A DNA stretch of 64,000 nt from Leptotrichia massiliensis (GTDB lineage: Bacteria > Fusobacteriota > Fusobacteriia > Fusobacteriales > Leptotrichiaceae), in the NCBI RefSeq assembly GCF_900104625.1, contig NZ_FNVZ01000005.1, positions 124,001-188,000 of the forward strand, read 5' to 3'. The notes beneath the pieces were generated by a model. The model had not been told where the DNA came from. It did no database searches and saw nothing but the letters and a program-made list of their open reading frames with translations. The translations under genes and the position numbers were made by a program. Every line of letters begins with the position of its first letter. The stretch's first letter is position 1. This document shows, piece by piece, positions 52,206-53,228 of the stretch.

Positions 52206-52500
52206 AATTTCCTCCTTTTAATTGTGGGAGCGTTCCCAGTTAATTATTTTGCTCTTTTCCACGAATTATAATCTCCTTCTTCTATTCATAGGAGCGTTCC
52301 CAGTTCCCTGTTTTACTTATTTTTCAAGAATCATAATCTTGTCATCTACTTATAGAAACGCTCCCGATTACCTGTTCTCTTTCTTTTTTAAGAATCATAC
52401 TTCCCTCCTTCTGTTTATGAGATCGTTCTCTTTAAATAGCGCCTTTTATAGAATATTATCGGTATAATCTAATCAATTTAAGTATGTGAGAACGTTCCTA
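52202..52500 (-). promoter_or_regulatory. fucA leader with five LacI-type operators in ~64-bp tandem units
   Basis: Five palindromic sites of the form GGGAnCGTTCCC are centred near 52231, 52295, 52359, 52424 and 52493, giving spacings of 64, 64, 65 and 69 bases. The first (TGGGAGCGTTCCCA) is near-perfect and the outer ones are more diverged. Each of the first four is followed, at the same distance, by a copy of the fucA ribosome site and first codons, so the leader arose by tandem duplication of an operator-SD-start unit. The site at 52487-52500 lies just downstream of the promoter. Confidence 0.85.
52342..52398 (-). CDS. 18-codon leader ORF duplicated from the fucA start
   Basis: On the minus strand GGAGGGAAGT precedes an ATG at 52398 that opens the peptide MILKKEREQVIGSVSISR, ending at TGA 52342. 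Its first ten codons repeat the start of FucA with one change. It is within the operator array, ahead of fucA. It may simply be a duplication by-product, or it could act on translation of the operon. Confidence 0.4.
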   Translation of the reverse strand: MILKKEREQVIGSVSISR

Positions 52501-52616: not shown

Positions 52617-52847
52617 TTATTTATACTTGAAATTTTCTGCCTTATTCTTGTCTTTACCAATATAAGTTGCTACCTTCAGATATGGACAAAATGGCTGTTC
52701 CTTATTTTGATCTAGATATCTTTTTCCATCTTTTCCAACTAGACAATCTGGTGCCATATTTTCTTTAGTCCATTTTTCAAGAGCTGTTATAGCATCAAAA
52801 TTTTTCATTGCAGGAACTATGAATAAACGTGTTAAAATATCTAAATT
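52617..52847 (-). pseudogene. Tannase/feruloyl esterase C-terminal remnant
   Basis: The frame reads LTRLFIVPAMKNFDAITALE, then KWTKENMAPDCLVG and FCPYLKVATYIG, which matches the end of tannase-family proteins (typically LFMVPGMGHC, FDALTALEKWVE, PLCPYPQVARY). It begins with a stop just upstream in frame and lacks the GHC catalytic His motif and the whole main domain. An ATG at 52808 would give 63 residues. I read it as the tail of a lost esterase gene. Confidence 0.7.
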
Positions 52848-52940: not shown

Positions 52941-52967
52941 TTGACTTTTTTTTAAATATGATATAAT
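52941..52967 (+). promoter_or_regulatory. Promoter of the small membrane-peptide element
   Basis: TTGACT at 52941 and a perfect TATAAT at 52962 with a 15-base spacer, slightly short. A second possible pair, TTGTTA 52972 and TATAAT 52996 (18 bases), follows closely. Confidence 0.5.
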
Positions 52968-53023
52968 TAAATTGTTAAAAACCCTAAGGGGAACTTATAA
53001 TAGAATAAAATTACTGACAAATT

Positions 53024-53047
53024 AAGCTAGAATTTTCTAGCTTTTTT
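53024..53047 (+). terminator. Intrinsic terminator or attenuator inside the small element
   Basis: AAGCTAGA and TCTAGCTT form a perfect stem around ATTT, followed by TTTTTT. It lies between the promoter and the small ORF, so it would yield a short RNA of about 70 bases or attenuate the ORF. Confidence 0.8.
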
Positions 53048-53105
53048 GTTATAATAACAAAGAGTTCAGTAAACTCATATTCTTATTATAAGGAGGTTTA
53101 GAGCA

Positions 53106-53210
53106 GTGAATAGTGATGAACTTATTAGACTTCTAGTTCTTTTGTATATTGTTTACAGATTAACTAGATATTCGAAAAATCTCGAATTTCACCTCTGCCT
53201 CTACCCTTAG
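53106..53210 (+). CDS. 34-residue membrane peptide, type I toxin candidate
   Basis: AGGAGG at 53091 stands 9 bases before GTG 53106, opening 34 codons. The peptide has an acidic start, one hydrophobic helix (LIRLLVLLYIVYRL), then a basic and aromatic tail. Its size, single helix and strong ribosome site resemble type I toxins. The stop codon is inside CCCTTAGGG, which is exactly complementary to CCCTAAGGG near the expected 5' end of the transcript (52982-52990). A small hairpin (ATTCGA-AAAATC-TCGAAT) lies near the 3' end. The family is not one I recognise. Confidence 0.5.
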   Translation: MNSDELIRLLVLLYIVYRLTRYSKNLEFHLCLYP

Positions 53211-53228
53211 GGATTTCGATTAATAAAT

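Follow-up and report, generated by a model that had tools for sequence, protein, structure and literature searches.

An element beginning at position 52941 of a 64-kb stretch of the Leptotrichia massiliensis genome (contig NZ_FNVZ01000005.1, positions 124,001 to 188,000; this whole stretch is referred to as the window) is probably one member of a type I-like family of toxin-antitoxin modules in which the antitoxin RNA is encoded directly upstream of the toxin, co-directionally and on the same strand. An earlier note, made from the letters of the window alone, had proposed a new type I-like element, with a small hydrophobic peptide under the control of a short terminated RNA, and comparative data strongly support this proposal: the same layout recurs in ∼50 copies, with the small RNA and the open reading frame (ORF) on the same strand in all of them, and the complementarity between the two predicted transcripts is maintained by covarying changes. 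The promoter, complementary 9-mers, terminator, Shine-Dalgarno (SD) sequence, 34-codon ORF, small hairpin, and embedded stop codon that the note described are all present in the window sequence where it had placed them; it had missed the -10 sequence of a putative second promoter and two segments of the small RNA that are complementary to the mRNA.

Organization of the element and its relatives

The units are organized in the order promoter P1, a ∼75-nucleotide (nt) RNA with an intrinsic terminator, TATAAT (promoter P2), mRNA 5' hairpin, pre-SD arm, SD, ORF, 3' CCUC, and a GC hairpin that looks like a terminator in some copies, where a U-run comes after it. In the window all of these are on the plus strand. 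P1 (52941..52967) is composed of TTGACT (52941-52946), a 15-nt spacer, and TATAAT (52962-52967) (TGATATAAT), and is followed by a predicted ∼75-nt antitoxin-like small RNA (52974..53048; putative start site) that occupies the region between P1 and the intrinsic terminator and has a folding z of -3.3. This RNA contains the near-palindromic 5' 9-mer CCCTAAGGG (52982..52990), segment ii (CTTATAATAGAAT, 52994..53006), segment iii (TTACTGA, 53011..53017), and the terminator itself (53024..53048), with a stem-loop at 53024-53043 (8-bp stem, 4-nt loop) and then a U-run; one terminator is found here, compared with 0.1 expected in shuffled sequences. Directly after it is the extended -10 sequence TGTTATAAT (53047..53055), the predicted mRNA promoter P2, and among the five strict hairpin terminators in the window this is the only one with a TATAAT behind it.

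The mRNA region starts with a 5' hairpin, GAGTT-CAGTA-AACTC (53062..53076), whose loop can pair with segment iii, followed by the 14-nt pre-SD arm (segment ii', 53079..53092), which is complementary to segment ii and whose last base is the first G of the SD (AGGAGG, 53091..53096; GGAGG core, 53092-53096). The ORF as present in the window (53106..53210) has a GTG start and codes for 34 amino acids (aa) with one hydrophobic segment, and its TAG stop codon (53208-53210) lies inside the 3' 9-mer CCCTTAGGG (53204..53212), a short GC hairpin whose counterpart in several relatives has a U-run behind it, as in a terminator. Upstream of this 9-mer are a small hairpin, TCGAAAAATCTCGA (53172-53185), evident from the sequence, and the 3' tail CACCTCTGCCTC (53190..53201), an anti-SD sequence complementary to the SD.

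These parts are well conserved. P1 of the relatives is a near-consensus sigma-70 promoter (TTGACA/T-16-TATAAT), with a score of 11 to 12 out of 12 in 33 of 52 copies, and shuffled upstream regions never score above 10. Every aligned copy has the terminator, whose stem shows paired changes, and each position of the P2 TATAAT is conserved in 44 to 46 of 46 copies, within a few bases of the U-run. The family ORF codes for 19 to 22 aa with one hydrophobic segment (∼50 copies), and there are several peptide classes, including MNSDELIRLLVIMYIVYRLTR, MVDFIAIFILFVIIYYSLNR, MRTLLIVVILFIAISKILY, and MKLLIWIVVLFFIIQYFLL; MVDFIAIFILFVIIYYSLNR and MRTLAIVTILFIVITKVLY are among the intact peptides. Substitutions in the ORF are mostly synonymous, with ratios of nonsynonymous to synonymous polymorphism (pN/pS) of 0.31, 0.31, and 0.59 in three peptide classes, and this purifying selection indicates that the peptide is a real product.

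The element does not correspond to a known family, as the earlier note had supposed. Rfam yields nothing at gathering score in the window, and only sub-threshold chance matches at seven family loci (STnc430 and BSnc120 on locus L104 among them); a search of six peptides of 20 to 34 aa against the Pfam and NCBIfam hidden Markov models returned no family at E values up to 10.

A pairing code between the small RNA and the mRNA

The mRNA stretch complementary to the upstream RNA is 12 to 17 nt long and lies beside the SD. Segments ii and ii' are nearly free in sequence and still complementary: among 41 copies, 96.1% of the alignment cells are paired (54.6% when shuffled), there are 183 double changes (63 when shuffled), and the covariation score is 0.977 vs 0.225, a signal that a one-base shift of the partner abolishes. 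RNAalifold, run on the first alignment, recovered the terminator alone, because the arms vary too much, and the arms were therefore anchored and counted instead. The anchored alignment used the best-fitting 12-nt windows, which favors pairing, and non-cognate combinations were given equal freedom; cognate arms then form 11.36 of 12 pairs, compared with 8.78 for non-cognate arms and 9.45 for the best of 20,000 permutations. Segment iii and the hairpin loop are likewise matched (cognate helix, 6.91 vs 3.19; permutation maximum, 4.77). Covariation, which the earlier note had proposed as a check, is thus present between the leader and both the pre-SD arm and the 5'-hairpin loop; the pairing of the 9-mers is not cognate specific. 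When mRNAs and small RNAs are compared within seven genomes, the neighboring RNA is the best partner for 29 of 29 mRNAs, a set that leaves out three rearranged units at loci L034 and L037. RNA-RNA regulation is strongly supported by these comparisons, and from the helix ending on the SD we infer repression rather than activation.

The rearranged units bear on whether the small RNA acts in trans or in cis. At L034 the first unit has no SD and no ORF but keeps its RNA, and this orphan RNA pairs with the mRNA of the next unit at -22.1 kcal/mol, compared with -9.2 for that unit's own RNA; at L037 two units have exchanged partners, with -27.2 and -32.4 across and about -13 at home. These rearrangements indicate a diffusible RNA that would act in trans, and are hard to explain by intramolecular pairing only. 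A quite unlikely alternative is a single read-through mRNA with a cis-acting leader, in which the terminator is an attenuator, the leader arms fold onto the SD, and there is no separate small RNA. The leader and mRNA are indeed adjacent in almost all copies, and the entire window transcript folds as one closed structure, at -75.2 compared with -43.2 kcal/mol in shuffled sequences (z = -7.1). However, a read-through transcript has no need of the near-invariant TATAAT right after the terminator, the terminator is conserved with paired changes, and the matching partners at L034 and L037 belong to different units, with additional terminators and promoters between them. As a separate observation, a transposase-bearing element resembling an insertion sequence lies between the two tandem units of L037 (L037:1300-2935), with an apparent GGTCTGAA target duplication.

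The earlier note also envisaged a separate RNA from the opposite strand, which finds no support: minus-strand promoters are present in 5 of 46 copies, compared with 6.6 in shuffled sequences, and none is conserved, indicating that regulation does not depend on an overlapping antisense RNA of the conventional kind. A classical hok- or aapA-type system with such an RNA is accordingly very improbable, although sequestration of the SD by a 3' tail, as predicted here, is reminiscent of the hok and aapA1 mRNAs in their inactive, full-length form (for aapA1, PMC8167048). An overlapping antisense RNA is complementary by construction, and the split, covarying complementarity seen here on one strand would need no selection.

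Closure of the SD by the 3' tail and the role of the 9-mers

The mRNA is also predicted to lock itself. Among the 41 intact copies, predicted pairing of the SD with the 3' tail is 0.81, compared with 0.48 with shuffled tails, and CTC is directly 5' of the 3' GC hairpin in 40 of 41. Trimming of the tail is predicted to raise SD accessibility from 0.14 to 0.37, with the SD opening in 38 of 41 copies.

The two 9-mers, which the earlier note saw as a long-distance end pairing, are exact reverse complements (52982-52990 with 53204-53212), and their complementarity is real, but each alone is nearly palindromic and the pairing is not a conserved regulatory feature. Cognate ends pair at -14.9 and non-cognate ends at -14.2 kcal/mol, with 4% of permutations as good, and the Sebaldella copies have no 5' 9-mer. 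End pairing of the 9-mers is therefore ruled out as the main lock; in Leptotrichia it would add to closure, without cognate specificity.

As inverted repeats in elements with multiple copies per genome, the 9-mers might instead be the terminal repeats of a non-coding miniature inverted-repeat transposable element, as the earlier note considered. This is scarcely credible, and is refuted by the purifying selection on the ORF together with the RNA-RNA covariation of the internal segments; in addition, conservation reaches past the 9-mers to P1, and the 5' 9-mers are absent in Sebaldella.

Distribution in chromosomes, plasmids, and a prophage

With R1, a covariance model built on the leader-to-start region, the element was found at E < 1e-4 in 20 of 98 Fusobacteriota genomes, which have as many as 11 matches each and all belong to the Leptotrichiaceae. 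Elsewhere the only matches are two at E ∼0.002, both in another family of the same order. Homologues are full-length in most genomes of the same genus and partial in other Leptotrichiaceae genera, and include head-to-tail arrays. The window's own genome has a second, apparently intact copy (G000:C5:1337718-1337845; loci L002 and L053) coding for a different, 20-aa peptide, MVDFIAIFILFVIIYYILNR. Weak matches in Lactobacillus, Erysipelotrichaceae, and Bacilli metagenome-assembled genomes were rejected as ordinary terminators followed by tRNA or protein genes, and a search of the INPHARED phages gave no match to the element.

Mobile elements also carry copies. Both plasmids of Sebaldella termitidis, pSTERM01 and pSTERM02 (NC_013518 and NC_013519), have them, and their ORFs are unannotated there. 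The copy at L279 on pSTERM01 (NC_013518.1) immediately follows a MazE/PemK type II toxin-antitoxin pair, with TIR and SIR2 domain proteins close by, a neighborhood that suggests a stability or defense island. A phage-like contig (L152, IMGVR_UViG_2506520045) has one intact copy adjoining a terminase-like gene, with other packaging and structural genes on the contig; its peptide, MLKIAVVLIFLFISYNLF, is identical to that of a chromosomal copy in genome G026 (L085).

The window copy and its orthologous site

The copy in the window is a lineage-specific, partly decayed member of the family, judging from its alignment with relatives. Its ORF and the stop codon embedded in the 9-mer are present as the earlier note described, but they are not a family trait: orthologues of the ORF stop at codon 21, and a TAG-to-TAT change after that codon, private to this copy, extends the ancestral 21-codon hydrophobic peptide MNSDELIRLLVLLYIVYRLTR (53106..53168) to 34 aa. 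The 15-nt P1 spacer, compared with 16 nt in relatives, is also peculiar to the window copy, and the pre-SD arm has one extra base, a 1-nt insertion relative to the closest relative, L005.

The orthologous site, defined by a shared neighboring esterase gene, was compared in 13 genomes of the genus. Genomes G002, G003, G006, and G007 are intact, each with a 21-aa peptide, and G001 and G012 lack the element. The remaining copies show varied decay: G011, 96% identical to the window copy, keeps the RNA and has GTA in place of the start codon; in G005 and G010 the U-run and P2 are gone, the SD is weakened, and the ORF is frameshifted; G009 has a stop codon inside the ORF and retains the RNA region; and G004 and G008 have lost the RNA region, with the SD destroyed or mutated in both. 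In these last two cases, loss of the RNA goes together with a broken SD, the direction expected of a harmful peptide.

The type of peptide, its tandem multiplicity, the copies on mobile elements, and this pattern of decay all point to a peptide that is presumably toxic. It is unlikely that the small RNA instead controls a membrane peptide with a regulatory, non-toxic role, such as a stress signal or a modulator of membrane proteins. Regulators are common among small single-helix peptides, and both the purifying selection on the peptide and the retention of one orthologous site in several species would fit such a role; nonetheless, a toxin is a better fit to the tandem and multi-copy arrays, the great diversity of peptides that share a single RNA design, the plasmid and prophage copies, the frequency with which the peptide has decayed, and the double lock on translation.

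Several further observations concern the neighborhood of the site. Directly 5' of the element in the window is a 63-codon minus-strand ORF (52617-52808); in G008 the corresponding ORF now borders on the truncated element. The esterase beside the element in G005 (G005:C1:303038-303735; L292 and L293) matches in two overlapping frames and looks frameshifted. Farther upstream, 5' of an aldolase-like gene, are several imperfect direct repeats of ∼62 to 66 bp (52222-52500), each bearing a palindrome resembling GGGAGCGTTCCC (near 52230, 52292, 52354, 52420, and 52488); they resemble a series of repressor operators derived from partial tandem duplication.

Proposed mechanism

In the type I-like system proposed here, P1 would give rise to the ∼75-nt RNA, ended at the intrinsic terminator, and P2, with its -10 sequence fused to that terminator, would give rise to the peptide mRNA. 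The mRNA would fold such that the 3' CCUC tail covers the SD, forming a self-lock. The small RNA would first contact the loop of the mRNA 5' hairpin and then zip through 12 to 17 bp up to the first G of the SD, and the resulting helix would block ribosome entry and probably invite RNase III. Upon exhaustion of the small RNA and trimming of the 3' tail, the membrane-spanning peptide of 19 to 22 aa would be made and would harm the membrane like IbsC or TisB.

Several points weigh against this reading. P2 of the family has no consistent or recognizable -35 sequence, and a read-through transcript could form the same pairings in cis. A weak filter for pairing (duplex energies of -9 or below) was applied in gathering the copies, although such a filter cannot yield energies of -17 to -29. 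Loss of the RNA with retention of the toxin region is limited to two cases, G004 and G008. Lastly, with the ancestral stop codon gone, the spacer of P1 shortened, and the pre-SD arm bulged, the element in the window may itself be dysfunctional.

Comparison with known toxin-antitoxin systems

In the reviews consulted, type I loci are described with the antitoxin either antisense to or divergent from the toxin (PMC4147584), as for the divergent dinQ/agrB (PMC3567139), and one review names a 'parallel' orientation without giving an example (PMC8167048). A cyanobacterial case described in 2025 extended the reported range of type I systems, confined before then to Proteobacteria, Firmicutes, and Tenericutes (PMC12390103). 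The Leptotrichiaceae family is likely a new architectural class and the first type I-like family in Fusobacteriota, with a head-to-tail arrangement on one strand, a terminator-promoter fusion, a two-part code of loop and pre-SD arm that acts in trans, and diversification into dozens of mutually orthogonal pairs, which chromosomes, plasmids, and a prophage carry; an earlier description was not found in the open-licence literature, and one elsewhere is possible. A co-directional design escapes searches aimed at antisense RNAs, and the more than 40 naturally varied cognate pairs are a ready data set on the evolution of RNA-RNA specificity and on orthogonality after duplication. The family also enlarges the small number of plasmid and prophage modules known in the phylum.

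The hok mRNA has a similar inactive full-length form, with an SD that lies under 3' sequence until 3' trimming opens it, and the first contact of its regulatory RNA is likewise made through a loop. The aapA1/isoA1 system is alike in having an inactive full-length mRNA with the SD under 3' sequence, opening by 3' trimming, and a loop-based first contact (PMC8167048). SD sequestration with 3' release is predicted in the Leptotrichiaceae family as well, but its 5'-3' end pairing lacks cognate specificity and is not universal. No mok-like leader ORF was identified in the family, and both hok/sok and aapA1/isoA1 differ in having the antisense RNA on the opposite strand.

Closer parallels are tisB/istR, shoB/ohsC, zorO/orzO, and dinQ/agrB of Escherichia coli, in which the antitoxin RNA of a small hydrophobic membrane peptide is encoded next to the toxin gene without overlap and is imperfectly complementary to the 5' region of the toxin mRNA (PMC4147584, PMC3567139). 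The RNA gene is divergent in that class, whereas in the Leptotrichiaceae family it is co-directional and fused to the toxin gene via the terminator and -10 sequence, and the peptides are unrelated by Pfam or NCBIfam. The ibs/sib loci of E. coli are also multi-copy, with 19-aa toxins that several family peptides resemble by eye in length and look (e.g., MRTLLIVVILFIAISKILY); however, Sib is fully antisense to ibs and covers the coding region (PMC4147584), and there is no antisense promoter in the Leptotrichiaceae family. The type III toxIN locus has the same one-strand order of antitoxin RNA, intrinsic terminator, and toxin (PMC4147584), but the ToxI repeat RNA binds a protein ribonuclease, whereas the family RNA has complementarity to an mRNA, which codes for a hydrophobic peptide of ∼20 aa. 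With opposite-strand and divergent arrangements tested and absent, the family falls outside the named type I families, and what it has in common with type I systems is a small hydrophobic membrane-type peptide and a cognate, covarying RNA pairing that ends on the SD.
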